This document shows, in pieces, positions 9,891 through 63,038 of a stretch of DNA of 64,000 nt. Position 1 is the stretch's first letter. Every line of letters starts with the position of its first letter. Below the pieces are notes generated by a model. The model was not told the DNA's origin. It worked only from the letters and a program-made list of their open reading frames with translations, and searched no databases. This DNA comes from Persicobacter psychrovividus (lineage in GTDB: Bacteria; Bacteroidota; Bacteroidia; Cytophagales; Cyclobacteriaceae): the NCBI RefSeq assembly GCF_036492425.1, contig NZ_AP025292.1, forward strand, positions 930,001 to 994,000, read 5' to 3'. The position numbers were made by a program, and so were the translations under genes.

Positions 9891-9965
9891 GGGCTCTTAG
9901 CTCAGTTGGTTCAGAGCACCTGCCTTACAAGCAGGGGGTCACTGGTTCGAATCCAGTAGGGCCCA
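9891..9965 (+). tRNA. tRNA-Val(TAC), copy 1
   Basis: A 75-nt cloverleaf; anticodon loop CTTACAA, acceptor GGGCTCT/AGGGCCC. No encoded CCA. Confidence 0.97.
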
Positions 9966-10034
9966 CATTAAAAGGGAAGAGAAACATTTCTTCACGCAAT
10001 TTTTGGCACGATTGTCGCTAATGAATTGCACCAA

Positions 10035-10107
<73 letters not shown>

Positions 10108-10165
10108 CAGAATAGAAGGGGAGATTTGCAGTGTGTAAAATCATTTTCATTTCTTGGAACACTTT

Positions 10166-10240
10166 CGGGGTGTAGCGTAGCCCGGTCATCGCGCCTGCTT
10201 TGGGAGCAGGAGGTCGCAGGTTCGAATCCTGCCACCCCGA
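10166..10240 (+). tRNA. tRNA-Pro(TGG), copy 1
   Basis: A 75-nt cloverleaf; anticodon loop TTTGGGA, acceptor CGGGGTG/CACCCCG. Confidence 0.97.
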
Positions 10241-10274
10241 CGAAAAATGGAACCGTAACCATTCAAAAAAATAC

Positions 10275-10349
10275 GGGCTCTTAGCTCAGTTGGTTCAGAG
10301 CACCTGCCTTACAAGCAGGGGGTCACTGGTTCGAATCCAGTAGGGCCCA
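10275..10349 (+). tRNA. tRNA-Val(TAC), copy 2
   Basis: Same sequence as Val copy 1; it follows Pro copy 1 after a 34-nt spacer that recurs later in the array. Confidence 0.97.
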
Positions 10350-10376
10350 CAACACTTTAATAGTGTGTGACCGTTT

Positions 10377-10451
10377 CGGGGTGTAGCGTAGCCCGGTCAT
10401 CGCGCCTGCTTTGGGAGCAGGAGGTCGCAGGTTCGAATCCTGCCACCCCGA
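10377..10451 (+). tRNA. tRNA-Pro(TGG), copy 2
   Basis: Identical to Pro copy 1; anticodon loop TTTGGGA. Confidence 0.97.
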
Positions 10452-10486
10452 CGAAAAATGGAACCGTAACCATTCAAAAAAATAAA

Positions 10487-10561
10487 GGGCTCTTAGCTCA
10501 GTTGGTTCAGAGCACCTGCCTTACAAGCAGGGGGTCACTGGTTCGAATCCAGTAGGGCCCA
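10487..10561 (+). tRNA. tRNA-Val(TAC), copy 3
   Basis: Identical to the other Val copies. It opens the first 332-bp Val-Thr-Pro unit. Confidence 0.97.
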
Positions 10562-10617
10562 CAATCAATAGGATTGTGAGATCACATATTGAGCATATCG
10601 AATGAGAATTTGATACT

Positions 10618-10690
<73 letters not shown>

Positions 10691-10708
10691 CTTGAAGGAA
10701 AAAACCTT

Positions 10709-10783
10709 CGGGGTGTAGCGTAGCCCGGTCATCGCGCCTGCTTTGGGAGCAGGAGGTCGCAGGTTCGAATCCTGCCACCCCGA
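10709..10783 (+). tRNA. tRNA-Pro(TGG), copy 3
   Basis: Identical to other Pro copies; within the first 332-bp unit. Confidence 0.97.
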
Positions 10784-10818
10784 CGAAAAATGGAACCGTA
10801 ACCATTTAAAAAAATAAA

Positions 10819-10893
10819 GGGCTCTTAGCTCAGTTGGTTCAGAGCACCTGCCTTACAAGCAGGGGGTCACTGGTTCGAATCCAGTAGGGCCCA
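10819..10893 (+). tRNA. tRNA-Val(TAC), copy 4
   Basis: Identical to other Val copies; within the second 332-bp unit. Confidence 0.97.
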
Positions 10894-10949
10894 CAATCAA
10901 TAGGATTGTGAGATCACATATTGAGCATATCGAATGAGAATTTGATACT

Positions 10950-11022
<73 letters not shown>

Positions 11023-11040
11023 CTTGAAGGAAAAAACCTT

Positions 11041-11115
11041 CGGGGTGTAGCGTAGCCCGGTCATCGCGCCTGCTTTGGGAGCAGGAGGTCGCAGGTTCGA
11101 ATCCTGCCACCCCGA
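11041..11115 (+). tRNA. tRNA-Pro(TGG), copy 4
   Basis: Identical to other Pro copies; within the second 332-bp unit. Confidence 0.97.
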
Positions 11116-11150
11116 CGAAAAATGGAACCGTAACCATTTAAAAAAATAAA

Positions 11151-11225
11151 GGGCTCTTAGCTCAGTTGGTTCAGAGCACCTGCCTTACAAGCAGGGGGTC
11201 ACTGGTTCGAATCCAGTAGGGCCCA
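11151..11225 (+). tRNA. tRNA-Val(TAC), copy 5
   Basis: Identical to other Val copies; within the third 332-bp unit. Confidence 0.97.
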
Positions 11226-11281
11226 CAATCAATAGGATTGTGAGATCACATATTGAGCATATCGAATGAGAATTTGATACT

Positions 11282-11354
<73 letters not shown>

Positions 11355-11373
11355 CAAGAAGGAAAAAAACCTT

Positions 11374-11448
11374 CGGGGTGTAGCGTAGCCCGGTCATCGC
11401 GCCTGCTTTGGGAGCAGGAGGTCGCAGGTTCGAATCCTGCCACCCCGA
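11374..11448 (+). tRNA. tRNA-Pro(TGG), copy 5
   Basis: Identical to other Pro copies; last tRNA before the internal promoter. Confidence 0.97.
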
Positions 11449-11480
11449 CAATAAAAAATAAATAAAAATTGATTGCAAAG

Positions 11481-11510
11481 TTGCGGTTTGTTAAAAATCA
11501 TTTACCTTTG
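11481..11510 (+). promoter_or_regulatory. Internal promoter of the tRNA array
   Basis: TTG (11481-11483), 19 bases, TACCTTTG (11503-11510), in the only AT-rich spacer of the array. It would start a second transcript about 20 bases before Pro copy 6. Confidence 0.65.
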
Positions 11511-11536
11511 TAATCCCTTCAAAAACGAGGGCCTTT

Positions 11537-11611
11537 CGGGGTGTAGCGTAGCCCGGTCATCGCGCCTGCTTTGGGAGCAGGAGGTCGCAGGTTCGAATCC
11601 TGCCACCCCGA
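11537..11611 (+). tRNA. tRNA-Pro(TGG), copy 6
   Basis: Identical to other Pro copies; first tRNA after the internal promoter. Confidence 0.97.
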
Positions 11612-11645
11612 CGAAAAATGGAACCGTAACCATTTAAAAAAATAA

Positions 11646-11720
11646 GGGCTCTTAGCTCAGTTGGTTCAGAGCACCTGCCTTACAAGCAGGGGGTCACTGG
11701 TTCGAATCCAGTAGGGCCCA
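11646..11720 (+). tRNA. tRNA-Val(TAC), copy 6
   Basis: Identical to other Val copies. Confidence 0.97.
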
Positions 11721-11780
11721 CAATCAATAGGATTGTGAAATCATTTATTGAAATAAACTTTTCGGACATCGGTCTGATAA

Positions 11781-13394: not shown

Positions 13395-15214
13395 GGGGCT
13401 GTCGCAGATTCTCAGCCCTTCGTTTCAAAATAAATGTCATGGAAATTAAGTATATTAAGGTATTAAAAAAAGTACTTTTCCATGATCAAGAAGAAATTCA
13501 AATCTTACCAAAAAGATCAGGTTAGCCTGTTTCCTCTGAGTTTTGGGGAGCTGGTTCCGCCAGGGCATATCGCAAGGGTGATTGATTGTTTTGTTAATGG
13601 GCTGTCAATGGATTTGTTGGCTCGTTACTTTACAAATCAAGGAGGGAACGCTCCCTATAACCCTCGTATGATGATGAAGCTTTTGCTTTTTGGTTATCAG
13701 AGTGGAGTTTTCAGTAGTCGCAAAATTGAGGCATTTACCTATGAGTCGATTCCGTGCCTTTGGCTTTGTGGTGGCGAGCATCCTGATCATGCGACGATTG
13801 CTCGATTTCGGAGTCTCTATTTTCTCGATATTTTTCAGGATGTCTTCGTTCAGCTGATTCTTTTACTTGTGGAGAAAGGGCTTGTGAATCTTGAGGACTA
13901 TGTGCTTGACGGCACTAAGCTTGAGGCTGATGCGAACAAGTATAAAATGGTCTTTAAGAAAAATGCATTTCGATACAGTAAGATGGTTCGTGAGAAAATC
14001 ATAGCACTCTTTGCTGAGATAGATGAGATCGAAAAGCAGTCGGAGGAAGAGGCTAAAAAGGGGCATAAAATGGATTGTGAAGATTTCTCAAGTGAAGAGG
14101 TTTATGCTAAAGCACAAGAAATTGAAAAGTCAATTAACGAGGATTTGCCACCGAAGGAAAAGAAGAAAATCGAAACCCGATGTAGGCATCTGAAAAAAGG
14201 AGCAGATAAGCTAAAAGGTTACGAAGATCAGCTTCAAGAGCTTGGAGAGCGGAATTCTTACTCAAAAACAGATATAGATGCGACATATATGCGGATGAAA
14301 AATGATGAGTCGCGTCCAGGATATAACGTGCAAGTGGGTACAAACGGAGAGTTTATTACTGGGGCTACAGCTCATCAAAATGGTGGTGATTCAGCGTGCA
14401 CGATAGATCATTTAGAGGAGCGATCAAAGATGCTTGAACAGGTCAACTTGGATTCAATGCCAGAGACTTTGACGGCTGATGGGGGCTACGGAACAGAAGC
14501 TGTATTTGATTATTTAGAACAAAACGGGGTGAGTCCGAACGTTAAATTTACAGGTTATTACAAGGAGTCGAAGAAGACATTTAAGGAGGATATTTCGAGG
14601 TGGCAGAACATGCTTTATCATGAAGAGGGTGACTATTATGAGTGCGCCAACGGTCGGAAGTTAACGTGGAAAAAGCATAATATTGTAACAAACAAAAGCG
14701 GTTATGAATCACATCGGGATGTATATGAATCAGCTGATTGTTCGGACTGCCCGTTTAGGGAAAAGTGCTTTTCGATGAAGGGTAAAGTTAAGCAGATTGT
14801 GGTAAACAGGAACTTTCAACGGCACAAAGAACGAGCCCGACGAACCATCAAATCCGAAGAAGGAGGAGAGAAAATGAGAATGCGAGGCCATGATATCGAG
14901 ACGGTATTTGGCCACATCAAACACAATTTAAAATTCAAAAGATTCATGCTACGCGGACTTGAAAAAGTCGGTGCAGAACTTCTATTGCTTTCACTTTCTT
15001 ACAATCTTTCGAAAATGGCCAAATACAGTAAAAAGGCCTTAATTCGAGTTTTACTTTTTGTGTTTTTCGGAGAATGGATAAAAAAAGGCTTCAAGAGGTT
15101 CGAATTTCACTCTCAAAGCCTGTTTTTTATTCAAAATCAATTTTTGTACAAATTTTAAAAATCGTGGTAAAATTCCATTTTTACCCGATTTTTGAAGGGT
15201 TATGCGACAGCCCC
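13395..15214 (+). mobile_element. IS1182-like insertion sequence
   Basis: About 1820 bp between short inverted ends: GGGGCTGTCGCA at 13395-13406 and its complement at 15203-15214. It encodes one DDE transposase. The inner ends differ after 12 bases. A clear target duplication is not visible; only GTA flanks both sides, with one extra G on the left. The element sits between the kinase and regulator genes of one two-component pair. Its ends match those of MITE-1 at 20.5 and 62.7 kb. Confidence 0.85.
13482..15158 (+). CDS. IS1182 family DDE transposase
   Basis: A 558-residue, apparently intact transposase. The N-terminal part (FPLSFGELVPPGHIARVID, SGVFSSRKIE, EHPDHATIARFR) is the DUF772-type region of IS1182/IS5-like transposases. 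The catalytic triad is visible as Asp143 (VLDGTKLEA), Asp333 (LTADGGYG) and Glu473 (RGHDIETVFGHIKHN). A charged insertion of about 100 residues lies between the first and second Asp (160-260). A C-x2-C-x5-C cluster (420-429) precedes the last catalytic motif, as in the C-terminal DDE_Tnp_1 type. No frameshift is seen, so it may be active. Confidence 0.93.
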   Translation: MIKKKFKSYQKDQVSLFPLSFGELVPPGHIARVIDCFVNGLSMDLLARYFTNQGGNAPYNPRMMMKLLLFGYQSGVFSSRKIEAFTYESIPCLWLCGGEHPDHATIARFRSLYFLDIFQDVFVQLILLLVEKGLVNLEDYVLDGTKLEADANKYKMVFKKNAFRYSKMVREKIIALFAEIDEIEKQSEEEAKKGHKMDCEDFSSEEVYAKAQEIEKSINEDLPPKEKKKIETRCRHLKKGADKLKGYEDQLQELGERNSYSKTDIDATYMRMKNDESRPGYNVQVGTNGEFITGATAHQNGGDSACTIDHLEERSKMLEQVNLDSMPETLTADGGYGTEAVFDYLEQNGVSPNVKFTGYYKESKKTFKEDISRWQNMLYHEEGDYYECANGRKLTWKKHNIVTNKSGYESHRDVYESADCSDCPFREKCFSMKGKVKQIVVNRNFQRHKERARRTIKSEEGGEKMRMRGHDIETVFGHIKHNLKFKRFMLRGLEKVGAELLLLSLSYNLSKMAKYSKKALIRVLLFVFFGEWIKKGFKRFEFHSQSLFFIQNQFLYKF

Positions 15215-15273
15215 GTACCGATAGGTACAAAAATATTCGACAGCCTATTTGTAAACTATAATTTTTTCATTCC

Positions 15274-16029: not shown

Positions 16030-16100
16030 GGATAGGCTTTTCTCCCTAATACTCTAATGCCTTAGTTCCATGATTCTCAAGTAAGCTTGTTTTGAACGCT

Positions 16101-16178
16101 GTACGGATGCACCTACGTGTGTATCCAAACCATTTAAACTTATGATTACTTTGGGCAGACACATAGGTCAGCTCGTAC
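16101..16178. repeat. REP pair A1-B1 (BIME)
   Basis: A1 at 16105-16126: stem GGATGCAC/GTGTATCC, loop CTACGT, with GTAC directly before it. B1 at 16153-16174, inverted: stem GGGCTGAC-like arm (here GAGCTGAC)/GTCTGCCC, loop CTATGT, with GTAC outside. The two hairpins face each other across 26 bases, and the outer flanks GCTGTAC/GTACAGC are also complementary. Confidence 0.8.
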
Positions 16179-16247
16179 AGCTATCTAATTTAGGGCTGTC
16201 GAAAGGCATTGCTCAACGATTTTAGGAACAAGTTTATTTAGGACGCT

Positions 16248-16273
16248 GTATGGATGCACCTATGTGTGTATCC
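16248..16273 (+). repeat. Single REP unit A2 next to the RAYT stop
   Basis: GTAT followed by stem GGATGCAC/GTGTATCC with loop CTATGT (16252-16273). It ends five bases before the RAYT stop codon. RAYT genes are usually flanked by REPs like this. Confidence 0.8.
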
Positions 16274-16278
16274 TTCAA

Positions 16279-16812
16279 CTATTCCTTACAATAAAACCGA
16301 TCACTTTCCCAACGGGTAGGATTGGTCAAGATATAGTTTTCAATTTCGTCAAATGCCTGATCGTTTCTAATGATGTGTTCCCAATAGTTCCAATGCCAAA
16401 GTTTTTTGTCAAATGGAGTCCATCCTAATCCTTTTACTCTGCGAATATATTCATTGGTCGTCATGGTTTTGAACCACTGAATAACTCTTCCAAGAGTTGC
16501 TTTTTTATTAATGTGTGGGTAGTCTATAATTTGGATTATACAATGAAAATGGTTTGGCATTACGACCATAGATAAGCATTTGATTGATTCAAATTTATTT
16601 TCTAATTCAAAATACCACCTTTCAACCATGATTCCTGCAGAGTTTAAAACCATCTTTTCATTTTGAATCTTCCCGAAAAGACTGTGGTGTTTATTTGTGT
16701 TGATGGTCACAAAATATAGCCCTTGGTTAGAGTAGTCAAATCCTTTTAGGCGAAGGCTTTTTCTATGCCCTATTTGTGAGGTATCTCTATTCATAATGAT
16801 GTTTTTTAACAT
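16279..16812 (-). CDS. REP-associated tyrosine transposase (RAYT, Y1_Tnp)
   Basis: A 177-residue single-domain HUH transposase. Visible are GLYFVTINTNKHHSLFG, the HUH motif His88-Phe-His90 in VVMPNHFHCIIQI, and ENYILTNPTRW with the probable nucleophile Tyr160. This is the pattern of TnpA-REP proteins related to IS200/IS605, which cut REP hairpins as single strands next to a GTAG-like tetranucleotide. There is no TnpB or left-end/right-end IS structure. Instead seven GTAN-headed hairpins, one degenerate, surround the gene within 1 kb, and the same hairpins recur elsewhere in the window. That the enzyme spreads these REPs is inferred from this association and family knowledge. Confidence 0.9.
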   Translation of the reverse strand: MLKNIIMNRDTSQIGHRKSLRLKGFDYSNQGLYFVTINTNKHHSLFGKIQNEKMVLNSAGIMVERWYFELENKFESIKCLSMVVMPNHFHCIIQIIDYPHINKKATLGRVIQWFKTMTTNEYIRRVKGLGWTPFDKKLWHWNYWEHIIRNDQAFDEIENYILTNPTRWESDRFYCKE

Positions 16813-16884
16813 TAAGAATAATTTGGTAATTGTGTTTTTTAGGTGGATGTAATGAAATGATGTGTTTGTTTAATTTTTGTTAAT

Positions 16885-16955
16885 GTATGGTCTTGTGTGT
16901 ATTCAAATTCCGCCCTTTTATGATGATTTGGGCAGACACATAGGTCAGCCCGTAC
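16885..16955. repeat. REP pair with degenerate A unit and intact B2
   Basis: GTAT plus a shortened A unit (16889-16904, missing the 5' arm core but keeping GTGTGTATTC), then an inverted B2 at 16930-16951 (GGGC ... GCCC ends, loop complement ACATAG) with GTAC outside at 16952-16955. It is on the 5' side of the RAYT gene. Confidence 0.65.
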
Positions 16956-17029
16956 AGCGGTAAAATCAGGTTTGGAGCAGTATCAGAATTCACTTTTTTG
17001 AAATTAACAGAAAATATGTTTTGTAAGCT

Positions 17030-17098
17030 GTAAGGATGCACCTATGTGTGTATCCAAACTTTATGATGATTTGGGCAGACACATAGGTCGGCCCGTAC
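17030..17098. repeat. REP pair A3-B3 (BIME)
   Basis: GTAA then A3 at 17034-17055; inverted B3 at 17073-17094, then GTAC. The spacer is 17 bases. Pairs A3-B3 and 16885-16955 share their right flank (GTACAGCGGTAAAATC), so one was copied from the other. The stretch 16813-17260 holds only these pairs and the TonB-gene upstream region. Confidence 0.8.
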
Positions 17099-17260
17099 AG
17101 CGGTAAAATCAAATTCTTCTTAAACCTAATATCGATTGTATTTGAGCTTTGCTTGTCATGCCCACTTCAACCGCTGATTTGTCCGTTTCAGTGATTTTTT
17201 GACGCCAAACCAACACGATTGATGGTAGCTTTGGGACATCTAAACATCCCAACTATCAAT

Positions 17261-19582
17261 ATGAGAAGAATAATTGCTGGCCTTTGGCTGTTGTTGTTTG
17301 TTTGCACTGCCGTGATGGGGCAGGGGCAGAAATATACCTTGAGTGGAACGATCAAGGATGCCAATACGGGCGAGGACCTGATGATGGCCTACGCCGTAGT
17401 GGTCGGTCAGGCGGGAGTCGGTACCACCTCCAATGAGTATGGTTTTTATGCCTTGAAACTCCCCACAGGTACCTATGACATTCAGTTTTCCTACATTGGT
17501 TATGAGCCGATCGTTAAGACGGTCAAGCTCACCAAAAACCAAAGCATCAATATCCGTCTGAGCCCTGCCGTTAAGCAGATGGAAGAGGTGGTCATCTCTG
17601 CCGAGCGTGAAGACGCCAACGTTACCCAAAATAATGCAGGGGCGGTTTACCTTAGCCCCAAGAGCATGAAAGATCTCCCTACTTTCGGTGGGGAAACCGA
17701 TATCGTCAAGGCGATACAGACCACCGCTGGGGTCAAGCCTGCGGGTGATGGAAGCGCGGGTTACTATGTGCGTGGTGGTGGACTGGATCAAAACCTTGTC
17801 TTATTGGATGAAGCACCTGTTTACAACCCTTCCCACTTGTTGGGCTTCTTTTCGGTATTTAACAGTGATGCTCTGAAGGGCGCAACCATGTACAAAGGGG
17901 CGACGATGCCCGAGTATGGTGGGCGCACGGCTTCGGTGATGGACATCCGCATGAAGGATGGTAACAATCAGAACTTTTCGGGATCGGGTGGTATTGGAAC
18001 AATCGCATCTCGTCTTACGCTTGAAGGTCCAATCGTAAAGGATAAAGGTTCATTTATCATCTCTGGTCGTCGTACTTATGTTGATATGTTCCTTGGGCTG
18101 AGTGATCGATTCGATGGTTCAAGTCTTTATTTCTATGACTTGAATATGAAAGCCAACTATCAGGTCAGCTCCAAAGACCGTGTGTTTGTGTCGGGTTATT
18201 TCGGTCGGGATAAATTCGGTTTTGATGATGCAATGGGCATCGATTGGGGAAATGCGACGGGTACCTTACGATGGAATCATATTTTCAGTGGACAACTTTT
18301 CTCCAATACTTCCCTTGTGTTCAGTGATTACCAATATGGGGTAAGCATGGGCAGTGGTGAGGAGTCTGTTGGCTTGGAATCGGTGATCCGTGATTTTAAT
18401 TTAAAGCAGGATTTCTCTTTGAATCTTCACCCAAACCATGACCTGAAATTTGGTGCCAATGTGATTCAGCATACGATTCAGCCTGGTAATGTTGTGGCAG
18501 GTGCTGAGTCGGGTGTGAACTCTACCAAAGCGGAAGAGAAATATGGCTATGAGAGTGCTTTTTATATTCAGCATGAAGCGAAGGTCGGGTCGAAATGGCA
18601 GTTGAATTATGGTTTGCGCTATTCGATGTTCCATCAGGTAGGTGCGGGCAATCAGTACACCTATGATGCTTCGGGCAATGTTACCTCCAAGAAATATTTC
18701 GAATCGGGTGAAGTGATGGCCTTCCACGGAGGTTTCGAACCTCGTTTTATGGGAACCTATTTGATCAATGATCAGAGCTCCCTGAAGATGGGACTCAACC
18801 GCAACTATCAGTACATGCACATGCTGACCAACAGTACCTCTTCGAGCCCAACTGATACGTGGGTGATGAGCTCCAATAATATCAAACCGCAAATTGCCGA
18901 TCAGATCAGTTTGGGATACTTCCGCAATTTCAGCAACAATATGTATGAGTTCTCCACCGAGGTTTATTATAAGGAAATGCAAAATGTGATCGACTACAAA
19001 GACGGAGCAGATGTATTCCACAATGAACACCTCGAAGGGGATTTGGCTTATGGCGATGGTAAGGCTTACGGTATTGAGTTCATGTTCAAGAAAACCCAAG
19101 GACGATTCACAGGGTGGGCAAGCTACACGCTTTCACGCTCCTTGCGCCAAATCGATGGCATCAACCGTGGGGAGTGGTACGCCTCTCGTCAGGACCGTAT
19201 CCATGATTTCTCTCTTGTGGGTGCATACAAACTCAATGATAAATTCACGGTCTCGGGGAACTATATGTTCTACACGGGCGATGCGGTAACCTTCCCGACA
19301 GGCCGACAGATTATTGATGGCAAAGTTGTTCCTGTGTATTCGGACCGCAACAGCTACCGCATGCCGAACTACCGCCGACTGGATCTTAGCTTAACCAAGA
19401 TCATTAAGAAAACACCGAAGTTTGAATCGAGCTGGAACATCTCGCTTTACAACACCTTCGGAACTGAAAACGCCTACACGATCTCCTTCCGCCCTTCCGA
19501 GGACGACCCACAAGTTACCGAAGCGGTGCAGGTGGCCTTGTTCCGCTGGGTGCCTTCATTTACCTATAACTTTAAATTTTAA
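17261..19582 (+). CDS. TonB-dependent outer-membrane receptor
   Basis: A 773-residue receptor, with the start placed at the ATG that opens the signal peptide (MRRIIAGLWLLLFVCTAVMG). A CarboxypepD_reg-like domain (about 22-110: YTLSGTIKDANTGEDLMMAYAVV ... SFIGYEP-like FSYIGYEPIVK) precedes the plug (LPTFGGETDIVKAIQTTAGVKPAGDGSAGYYVRGGG, QNLVLLDEAPVYNPSHLLGFFS). The rest is a 22-strand-type barrel ending in FTYNFKF with a terminal Phe. It takes up an unknown ligand using TonB energy. It is paired with the DUF4249 lipoprotein that starts 3 bases after its stop, a standard Bacteroidota pair. Confidence 0.93.
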   Translation: MRRIIAGLWLLLFVCTAVMGQGQKYTLSGTIKDANTGEDLMMAYAVVVGQAGVGTTSNEYGFYALKLPTGTYDIQFSYIGYEPIVKTVKLTKNQSINIRLSPAVKQMEEVVISAEREDANVTQNNAGAVYLSPKSMKDLPTFGGETDIVKAIQTTAGVKPAGDGSAGYYVRGGGLDQNLVLLDEAPVYNPSHLLGFFSVFNSDALKGATMYKGATMPEYGGRTASVMDIRMKDGNNQNFSGSGGIGTIASRLTLEGPIVKDKGSFIISGRRTYVDMFLGLSDRFDGSSLYFYDLNMKANYQVSSKDRVFVSGYFGRDKFGFDDAMGIDWGNATGTLRWNHIFSGQLFSNTSLVFSDYQYGVSMGSGEESVGLESVIRDFNLKQDFSLNLHPNHDLKFGANVIQHTIQPGNVVAGAESGVNSTKAEEKYGYESAFYIQHEAKVGSKWQLNYGLRYSMFHQVGAGNQYTYDASGNVTSKKYFESGEVMAFHGGFEPRFMGTYLINDQSSLKMGLNRNYQYMHMLTNSTSSSPTDTWVMSSNNIKPQIADQISLGYFRNFSNNMYEFSTEVYYKEMQNVIDYKDGADVFHNEHLEGDLAYGDGKAYGIEFMFKKTQGRFTGWASYTLSRSLRQIDGINRGEWYASRQDRIHDFSLVGAYKLNDKFTVSGNYMFYTGDAVTFPTGRQIIDGKVVPVYSDRNSYRMPNYRRLDLSLTKIIKKTPKFESSWNISLYNTFGTENAYTISFRPSEDDPQVTEAVQVALFRWVPSFTYNFKF

Positions 19583-20455: not shown

Positions 20456-20481
20456 GTAGGGTCAAACCTATGTGTCTGACC
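20456..20481 (+). repeat. REP unit C1 (GTAG type)
   Basis: GTAG at 20456-20459 followed by stem GGTCAAAC/GTCTGACC (one A-C mismatch) and loop CTATGT. The flanks GTTTA/TAAAC extend the inverted repeat. It has the canonical GTAG head, unlike the GTAC/GTAT/GTAA heads of types A and B. Confidence 0.75.
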
Positions 20482-20506: not shown

Positions 20507-20697
20507 GGGGCTGTTGCACAACCATAATCCGATATTATACCACGAAATTTTATTTGGCCACTGTATGGGCTGACCTATGTGTCTGCCCGAATCATCATAA
20601 GTTTTGGGTGGTTTGGATACACACATAGGTGCATCCGTACAGCTCACGAAATAATATTTTGTGCGTAATTTAAAAAACTGAGTTGTGCGACAGCCCC
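20507..20697. mobile_element. MITE-1, intact copy, carrying a B-A REP pair
   Basis: A 191-bp element without a gene. Its ends are GGGGCTGTTGCACAAC and the complement of GGGGCTGTCGCACAAC (one difference), sharing the first 12 bases with the IS1182-like element except for one C/T change. Inside are REP B4 (20567-20588, GTAT head) and inverted A4 (20615-20636, GTAC head). It lies between units C1 and C2, apparently inserted into a C-type pair. A target duplication is not obvious. Confidence 0.8.
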
Positions 20698-62653: not shown

Positions 62654-63038
62654 GGGGCTGTTGCATAACCATAAATTGATTTTGTCCCACGAAATTTTAT
62701 TTGTCACTGTATGGGCTGACCTGCGTGTCTGCCCGAATCATCATAAATTTTGTGTGGTTTGGATACACACATAGGTGCATCCGCAATGTCATTAAGTTAA
62801 GCGCATTATCCTGTATAGACGTTATTTTTAACGTCTAATTCAATGGTGATTTTATAGGTTTCCTCTTAGATTTATTCAAATTGTTACGTGAGTCGTTAAG
62901 AATAACGCCTCTACGAGCATTTCAAATTTAGACCTGTGTCCCTCAAAATCCTTAACTTAATGACATTGGGTGCATCCGTACAGCTCACGAAATAAAATTT
63001 TGCACTAAATGCAGAGAGCTGAGTTGTGCGACACCCCC
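62654..63038. mobile_element. MITE-1, second copy, split by MITE-2
   Basis: Same ends as the 20.5-kb copy (GGGGCTGTTGCATAACC at left; right end complement GGGGGTGTCGCACAAC). Inside are REP B (62713-62734, GTAT head, loop CTGCGT) and inverted REP A (62761-62782). Removing MITE-2 and one target copy (195 bases) leaves 190 bp, matching the intact 191-bp copy. The left 17 bases also match the inner right end of the IS1182-like element. Confidence 0.82.
62784..62968. mobile_element. MITE-2, complete copy inserted in a REP
   Basis: A 185-bp element with perfect 18-bp inverted ends CAATGTCATTAAGTTAAG, flanked by a 10-bp direct repeat GGTGCATCCG (62774-62783 and 62969-62978). The interior has the perfect hairpin AGACGTTA-TTTT-TAACGTCT and no reading frame. 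A truncated relative is at 25167-25334. The target is the 5' arm of REP A. Confidence 0.85.

Follow-up and report, generated by a model that had tools for sequence, protein, structure and literature searches.

In the genome of Persicobacter psychrovividus, a small HUH transposase gene lies among short hairpins, most of them in inverted pairs, which raises the question of whether gene and hairpins form a RAYT (TnpA_REP) with its own REPs and, if so, why the head beside these hairpins is not GTAG and what spread the hairpins through the genome. A sequence-only reading of the window, the whole stretch of 64,000 nucleotides analysed here (G000:C1:930001-994000), had proposed such a pairing. The pairing is of a known kind; what is new is a changed head together with a changed guide-contact motif, the nesting of REP doublets in a MITE, and the presence of a second MITE in the hairpin arms. 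On balance, we regard the locus as probably the REPtron of a Persicobacter species, that is, a domesticated RAYT amid its own REPs, with a changed head and with many copies carried by a MITE.

The RAYT gene and its hairpins

The features at and near the gene are listed below by window position.

16279 to 16812, minus strand: RAYT (TnpA_REP) gene, an ORF of 177 aa, assigned by profile matches, motifs, and predicted fold
Motifs of the RAYT protein: HUH motif P-N-H88-F-H90; guide-contact motif W139-H140-W141-N-Y-W-E145-H146-I-I-R149; catalytic Y160
16101 to 16126 (hairpin from 16105), plus strand: REP unit A1, head GTAC followed by GGATGCAC CTACGT GTGTATCC
16153 to 16178, minus strand: REP unit B1, inverted partner of A1, head GTAC followed by GAGCTGAC CTATGT GTCTGCCC
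16248 to 16273 (hairpin from 16252), plus strand: REP unit A2, single, head GTAT
About 16883 to 16904, plus strand: degenerate A unit (A3), recognisable mainly through its 3' arm and read by eye
16930 to 16955, minus strand: REP unit B3, head GTAC
17030 to 17055 (hairpin from 17034), plus strand: REP unit A4, head GTAA
17073 to 17098, minus strand: REP unit B4, inverted partner of A4, head GTAC
20460 to 20481, plus strand: type II REP unit, head GTAG, GGTCAAAC..GTCTGACC

The protein matched Pfam Y1_Tnp at 26.2 bits (cut-off, 23) and NCBIfam REP_Tyr_transpos (NF047646) at 68.4 bits, under the curated cut-off of 80; five RAYT relatives scored in the same way reached 62.3 to 79.8 bits, all under 80 as well, so NF047646 covers this RAYT clade poorly. 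Rfam and PADLOC gave no matches. An AlphaFold model built from a 34-row alignment (pLDDT, 85) showed the HUH Y1 fold in Foldseek, with ISDra2 and IS608 TnpA and the E. coli RAYT-REP complex 4er8 as the best solved relatives, the last at 21% identity in the structural match. H88, H90, and Y160 are invariant across the 34 aligned RAYTs, and a Y-I-L-T-N-P motif is present. With its HUH motif, single catalytic tyrosine, and Y1 transposase fold, and with its gene flanked by REP hairpins that recur genome-wide, the protein can be called a RAYT; the proposal that a member of the Bacteroidota has a RAYT accompanied by REP hairpins of its own was thus borne out by gene motifs, fold, and six hairpins plus a degenerate unit. 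Between the two genomes compared, there is one copy in the source genome (G000) and one, 98% identical, at the matching locus of a sister genome of the same species (G049); the four replacement and two silent changes between them (dN/dS, 0.44) are too few to reveal selection. The remaining Y1 genes of G000 are distant homologues.

The six hairpins and the degenerate unit are arranged as A1 B1' A2 [gene] a3 B3' A4 B4', where a prime marks an inverted unit and a3 is the degenerate one; all seven had been named by the sequence-only reading and were found again around the gene by pattern search or, for the degenerate unit, by eye. The consensus A unit is GGATGCAC-CTAYGT-GTGTATCC, and the consensus B unit is GGGCYGAC-CTATGT-GTCTGCCC (GAGC in B1). 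The stem of 8 bp with one weak pair and the CTATGT-like loop were likewise as described: the A-unit stem contains a single G.T pair, at whose position B units carry a T.T mismatch (the B unit at 16153 has a second one), and loops are CTATGT or CTACGT. Single-strand DNA folding gave z scores of -2.8 for A and -4.7 for B. None of the six intact heads is GTAG; they read, in order, GTAC, GTAC, GTAT, GTAC, GTAA, and GTAC, which agrees with the earlier remark that the head departs from GTAG. With up to three mismatches, the pattern matched the window eight times (0.01 expected), and further units, absent from the first list, lie at 20460, 20567, 20615 (minus), 62713, and 62761 (minus).

A genome-wide count had been suggested as a check, with confinement of the hairpins to the window, or equal abundance in relatives that lack the RAYT, as the outcomes that would tell against the pairing. 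Exact matches to the hairpin pattern number 46 in the 6.15-Mb genome, nine of them inside the window, and the reversed control pattern has none; at two mismatches there were 152 matches against 87 for the control, so weak matches are mostly background. RAYT homologues (E <= 0.001), mostly distant, are present in 48 of the 148 family genomes, and the exact pattern is present in six: 46 copies in G000, 49 in G049, two in G139, and one in each of three genomes where the matches are poor palindromes (across these genomes the control matched six times). None of the 146 genomes other than G000 and G049 exceeds two copies. G139 carries a related RAYT that matches in two pieces, each in its own frame, at 52 to 53% identity; about 130 bp separate the nearer of them from a hairpin. 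A genome of the same genus that is 91% complete (G113) has no hairpins and no such RAYT (best match, 34%). Neither of the outcomes that would tell against the pairing was obtained. Because the counts track the presence of this RAYT across the 148 genomes, the hairpins go with it at species level: the REP family is common to the RAYT and its orthologue and missing from relatives without the RAYT, a comparison that includes one orthologue.

REP doublets inside a MITE

The mobile elements that bear on the hairpins within the window are as follows.

13395 to 15215, plus strand: IS1182-family IS, transposase at 13482 to 15158, ends GGGGCTGTCGCA
20507 to 20697, plus strand: MITE of about 190 bp with IS1182-like ends (GGGGCTGTYGCAYAAC), holding a type I doublet (B at 20567 to 20588, plus; A at 20615 to 20636, minus)
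62654 to 63038, plus strand: second copy of the MITE of about 190 bp, doublet at 62713 to 62734 and 62761 to 62782, split by another MITE
62784 to 62968, plus strand: second MITE, 185 bp, ends CAATGTCATTAAGTTAAG, in an A hairpin arm, with a 10-bp target repeat GGTGCATCCG at 62774 to 62783 and 62969 to 62978

We surveyed 46 inverted doublets in part of G000 for the ends GGGGCTGTYGCAYAAC, allowing up to five mismatches. Both ends were found about 60 bp to each side in 23 of the 46, one end in 10, and none in 13; at 17,790 random window positions, both ends were found in no case and one end in 49. For six of the 23, scoring used wider windows and allowed for a second MITE at the foot, neither of which the null included. 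Neither complete doublet at the RAYT is bounded by a MITE end. The same MITE frame holds doublets of type II (GGTCAGAC / GGGCGAAC; heads GTAG and GTAC), and type I copies in the MITE share founder heads, mostly GTAC on A and GTAT or GTAC on B. Among 138 hairpins at the RAYT loci of relatives, no MITE end was found within 130 bp at up to three mismatches (three at four mismatches).

The MITE ends share GGGGCTGTCGCA over at least 12 bases with the IS1182-family element of the window, an identical copy of which is on contig 3 and whose transposase we take to be of the double-strand DDE type. The MITE probably took up a REP doublet, whose copies would then be passengers mobilised by a DDE transposase, and, judging from the similarity of the ends, the IS1182 element of the window is a likely source of the moving activity. 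Having such ends does not make an element a REP carrier, since elements of 215 to 222 bp with the same IS1182-like ends and no REP hairpins exist (L273, L280, L284, L288); these are perhaps a sister MITE family. Since 23 of the 46 doublets ride in a two-ended MITE, REP copy number is no measure of RAYT activity, a caution wherever counts could be taken for it. The claim that the hairpins are the RAYT's own therefore stands as regards co-occurrence; the idea that the whole population is simply the work of the RAYT does not.

Comparison of G000 with G049 gave one clear site difference (L011/L250). At the MITE site 20507 to 20697, G049 carries a type II hairpin instead; this partner of the type II unit at 20460 has been replaced in G000 by the adjoining MITE. 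Presence or absence of doublets between the two genomes was set aside as a movement test, as only L011 was clean: L020, L024, L035, L041, and L043 were otherwise rearranged, L021 was confounded by tandem repeats, and L028 was not placed.

The MITE of about 185 bp lies in hairpin arms of both REP types, flanked by target repeats of 9 to 10 bp that were read by eye. Its loci are the window copy at 62784 to 62968 and L004, L013, L015, L020, L022, L023, L024, L034, L037, and L039; L034 apparently has two copies at one target. Four insertions in G000 are missing in G049 (L013/L241, L023/L209, L037/L224, and L039/L228). The sequence CTTAACTTAATGACATTG at hairpin feet, considered as a possible RAYT cleavage product, proved to be the end of this second MITE with its 9- to 10-bp target repeats. 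Two further observations concern the mobile elements. By eye, elements with IS1182-like ends at L026, at L004, and at 13395 are flanked by GTAC and GTAG, which looks like an insertion replacing the centre of another dispersed palindrome. At L199 (positions 1 to 600), an array of short direct repeats in tandem adjoins a REP MITE, and G049 has corresponding repeats (L222).

The changed head and the guide-contact motif

A scan of named genomes for relatives of the RAYT yielded 530 related stretches, the best 80 of which came from records named Bacteroidota, Chloroflexota, a Clostridia, Proteobacteria, Planctomycetes, and others. Relatives in several phyla have hairpins beside the gene with the same stem and loop but with a GTAG head, and several carry extra coding sequence inserted between the HUH motif and the Tyr motif. 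Hairpins of the same plan at loci L103 to L181 have GTAG in 113 of 129 cases; the four bases beside the stem are G in 127, T in 127, A in 121, and G in 123, and the two preceding bases are free. The Persicobacter RAYT would thus belong to a clade spread over several phyla, with REPs that mostly follow the plan GTAG-GGGCNNAC-CTRYGT-GTNNGCCC. We counted heads in 54 genomes, namely G000, G049, G139, G008, and the source genomes of 50 of the 80 named loci. The ratio of GTAG to GTA[ACT] was 7:49 in G000 and 3:54 in G049, jointly 10:103, against 486:14 summed over the other 52 RAYT genomes, 36 of which had a GTAG match.

In 54 undisturbed feet of G000, positions -6 to -2 are C in 52, T in 51, G in 51, T in 53, and A in 53, and the base adjacent to the stem is C in 30, T in 16, G in 5, and A in 3; G049 feet show a similar pattern. 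Head copies inside MITEs are not independent. When the count was restricted to A2, B3, and those type I doublets that have at most one MITE end, CTGTA was present in 26 of 30 undisturbed feet (the exceptions are in L198, L002, L024, and L034), and the next base in those 26 was C in 14, T in 9, A in 3, and never G. All six feet at the RAYT keep CTGTA, and the five intact heads at the G049 RAYT locus (L084) are GTAC or GTAA. Because CTGTA is fixed and the stem-adjacent base is free, the conserved block has moved outward, which goes beyond the mere loss of a base; the head is best written as CTGTA plus one free base, versus GTAG in relatives.

The head is changed in Persicobacter, and so is the guide-contact motif, from WQRN, which relatives such as the Flammeovirga RAYTs (L108, L112) have, to WHWN. 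In a phmmer alignment, W139-H140 corresponds to W94-Q95 of 4er8 (E. coli); Q140 and R141 are conserved at 90% or more in the 34 aligned RAYTs, and the Persicobacter RAYT has H and W. According to PMC8266576, Q95, D100, and R104 are among the GTAG-contact residues relatively conserved between groups; PMC6006769, which also counts Q95 as a GTAG contact, discusses W94, Q95, E100, H101, and R104. Among the best 80 of the 530 stretches, a motif scan found H in two (L102, which is the Persicobacter RAYT, and L107), L in L155, no match in L120, and Q in the other 76.

A wider motif scan covered 395 Bacteroidota genomes and matched W-H in 14 (no RAYT row was obtained for L296, L300, and L301). Two RAYT loci in viral contigs were left out. 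Pooled with the other loci, these made up 16 H and 104 Q rows, for 10 and 72 of which, respectively, a GTAN hairpin was found within 900 bp or in the gene; none was detectable for six of the 16 H rows, one of which is a 56-aa fragment. Guide base 4 was C in 20, G in 7, A in 3, and T in 3 for H rows and G in 182, A in 9, C in 4, and T in 1 for Q rows, with GTAC feet seen, for example, at L067/L101, L297, L298, and L302. Any non-G head occurred at 8 of 10 H loci and 11 of 72 Q loci (Fisher p, 7e-5, kinship ignored), and a majority of non-G heads at 7 of 10 and 4 of 72. The loci share ancestry: L084 and L292 represent a single gene from two strains, and L297/L298 and L302/L303 are pairs of near relatives. 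A quick tree was built from 106 rows, 15 of them H; on it the residue changes nine times, and a tree test of H against head gave three independent pairs on supported branches, too few for the sign test to reach significance (seven on the best tree, likewise nonsignificant). L107 and L294 have H with GTAG only and L082 has H with mostly GTAG; a narrower motif scan of 128 genomes of one order returned L302 and L303 again and no new locus. A clean code from residue to guide was dropped, given the relatedness of the rows, the nonsignificant tree test, and the H loci with GTAG; the association is suggestive of a tendency of H-type RAYTs toward GTAC feet.

Explanations weighed against known systems

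From the species-level co-occurrence, the co-location in two genomes, and the changed guide-contact motif, we infer that the RAYT recognises these hairpins. The enzyme would bind the folded single strand of A or B, hold the 5' head in a pocket around W139 to R149, and use Y160 to cleave and rejoin DNA beside the hairpin; cleavage and rejoining of this kind have been shown in vitro for the E. coli, S. maltophilia, and Marinomonas enzymes (PMC8266576). Reading of the head probably changed along with the protein, leaving the stem-adjacent base free (C, T, or A, rarely G) and CTGTA fixed as Q-R became H-W. As the head has changed, the choice of cleavage site should change too: by the Marinomonas rule (PMC8266576), a GTAC head predicts a shift from CT/CA to GT/GA, and if the register itself has moved, we would expect cleavage at TA or TC. 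The REP doublet would later have joined the MITE of about 190 bp, which a DDE transposase probably copied around the genome. A natural recoding of the guide, with the head shifted by about one base as W-Q-R became W-H-W, cleavage moved off CT to a site set by the new head, and the change from Q to H recurring in RAYTs with a tendency toward GTAC, is a possibility that we take seriously while holding it only tentatively; if it is true, a simple recognition code would link residue 95 of the protein to base 4 of the guide. Natural enzyme-hairpin pairs share the stem plan and loop, with proteins 44 to 58% identical to the Persicobacter RAYT, and differ in their heads, so that an exchange of two residues and one or two bases could probe how the guide is read.

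The head could also simply have decayed, the doublets copied by the MITE having been freed from reading by a RAYT that recognises GTAG or nothing, so that the base drifted. Half of the doublets examined do lie in two-ended MITEs, and the type I copies there share founder heads, but drift is not expected to keep CTGTA in 26 of 30 feet outside two-ended MITEs and yet avoid G, and the five intact heads at the G049 RAYT locus are also GTAC or GTAA; we consider decay unlikely. Still less probable is that the hairpins are structural parts of the MITE and the RAYT a bystander or recent arrival. Doublets of both types do sit at one shared position within MITEs that have common ends; however, both complete doublets at the RAYT are without MITE ends, relatives in other genera and phyla have gene-side hairpins without them, and the 91%-complete genome of the same genus that lacks the RAYT has none of the hairpins. 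As for the copies borne by the MITE, it is very improbable that the RAYT rather than IS1182 moved them and that IS1182-like ends are merely a frequent landing place: no direct support was found for it and the two genomes compared are compatible with it; against it, the ends stand at a near-constant distance of about 60 bp on both sides of 23 of 46 doublets, and same-ended elements without a REP exist.

The locus had been likened to the REP and BIME logic of Gammaproteobacteria. The likeness holds; a restriction to that class does not, as RAYT/REP units of subclasses 2.4 and 2.6 have been published for Bacteroidetes (Quentin et al. 2018, PMC6006769) and GTAG relatives occur in several phyla. 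By its motifs, rather than by a tree with published members, the Persicobacter RAYT would belong to subclass 2.4 (group 4 of Bertels et al.), which it resembles in NHFH, Y-x-x-x-N-P, similar length, and presence in Bacteroidetes. Of the features of that subclass, NH[IFV]H is present (NHFH), WQ is replaced by WH, YIxNNP is one position off (YILTNP), and the GT[AG]G head is absent in Persicobacter and present in most relatives. REP insertions between the HUH and Y motifs are a subclass 2.4 feature (PMC6006769); some relatives share such in-gene insertions and GTAG REPs with G-C-rich stem feet, whereas the Persicobacter RAYT has no in-gene REP. The features of subclass 2.6 (group 5), NH[LIV]H, YIH[QN]NP, and SS after the Tyr, are replaced here by NHFH and YILTNP, with no SS.

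The E. coli REPtron (TnpA_REP, 4er8; BIME/REPIN) is alike in fold and in having one gene flanked by related inverted hairpin pairs; its RAYT requires GTAG and a bulged stem (PMC8266576), whereas the Persicobacter head is CTGTA plus a free base and the loop CTATGT. In the Marinomonas REPtron Mb (group 3), the head is a mutable guide, and GTAC shifted cleavage from CT/CA to GT/GA (PMC8266576); that head change was made in the laboratory, whereas in Persicobacter it is natural, lineage-wide, and accompanied by a protein change. ISPpu9 of Pseudomonas putida reportedly targets REPs (PMC8450116) and resembles the present case in REP insertion, the difference being that the Persicobacter inserter is a 185-bp MITE with 9- to 10-bp target repeats. 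REPINs, reportedly described by Bertels and Rainey in 2011, are likewise inverted REP doublets dispersed genome-wide and tied to one RAYT; the Persicobacter case differs in that a MITE with DDE-type ends encloses half of the doublets examined. In the literature lying outside most subscription journals, searches for Persicobacter REPs, for REP doublets inside an IS1182-type MITE, and for a naturally occurring GTAC/CTGTA guide combined with a Q95 change turned up no earlier description.

Several other genes and repeats were noted. A third RAYT-like gene (G000:C1:1055424-1055945, L082 and L306; G049:C26, L083), with a stop in the G000 match and open in G049, adjoins eight detected hairpins GTAC-GGACGTTGCATGCAACGTC-(A/C)CTAC that show GTAC on one strand and GTAG on the other; the hairpin also occurs at L036. 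A RAYT of 184 aa (G000:C1:1060573-1061127; L047, 2574 to 3128) fits subclass 2.6 (NHIH, YLHYNP, SS) and scores 98 bits against the NCBIfam model; no cognate hairpins were recognised for it, and a second REPtron considered there was dropped, its type II doublet being a MITE copy about 590 bp away. At L046 (2361 to 2813), a 150-aa IS200-like TnpA (DHVH, YIKNQKIHH) fits subclass 1.2, which is reported to be without REPs (PMC6006769). Finally, positions 9946 to 11722 of the window (minus strand) contain the 26-base tRNA-like sequence CTACTGGATTCGAACCAGTGACCCCC six times, in what looks like a tandem tRNA array.
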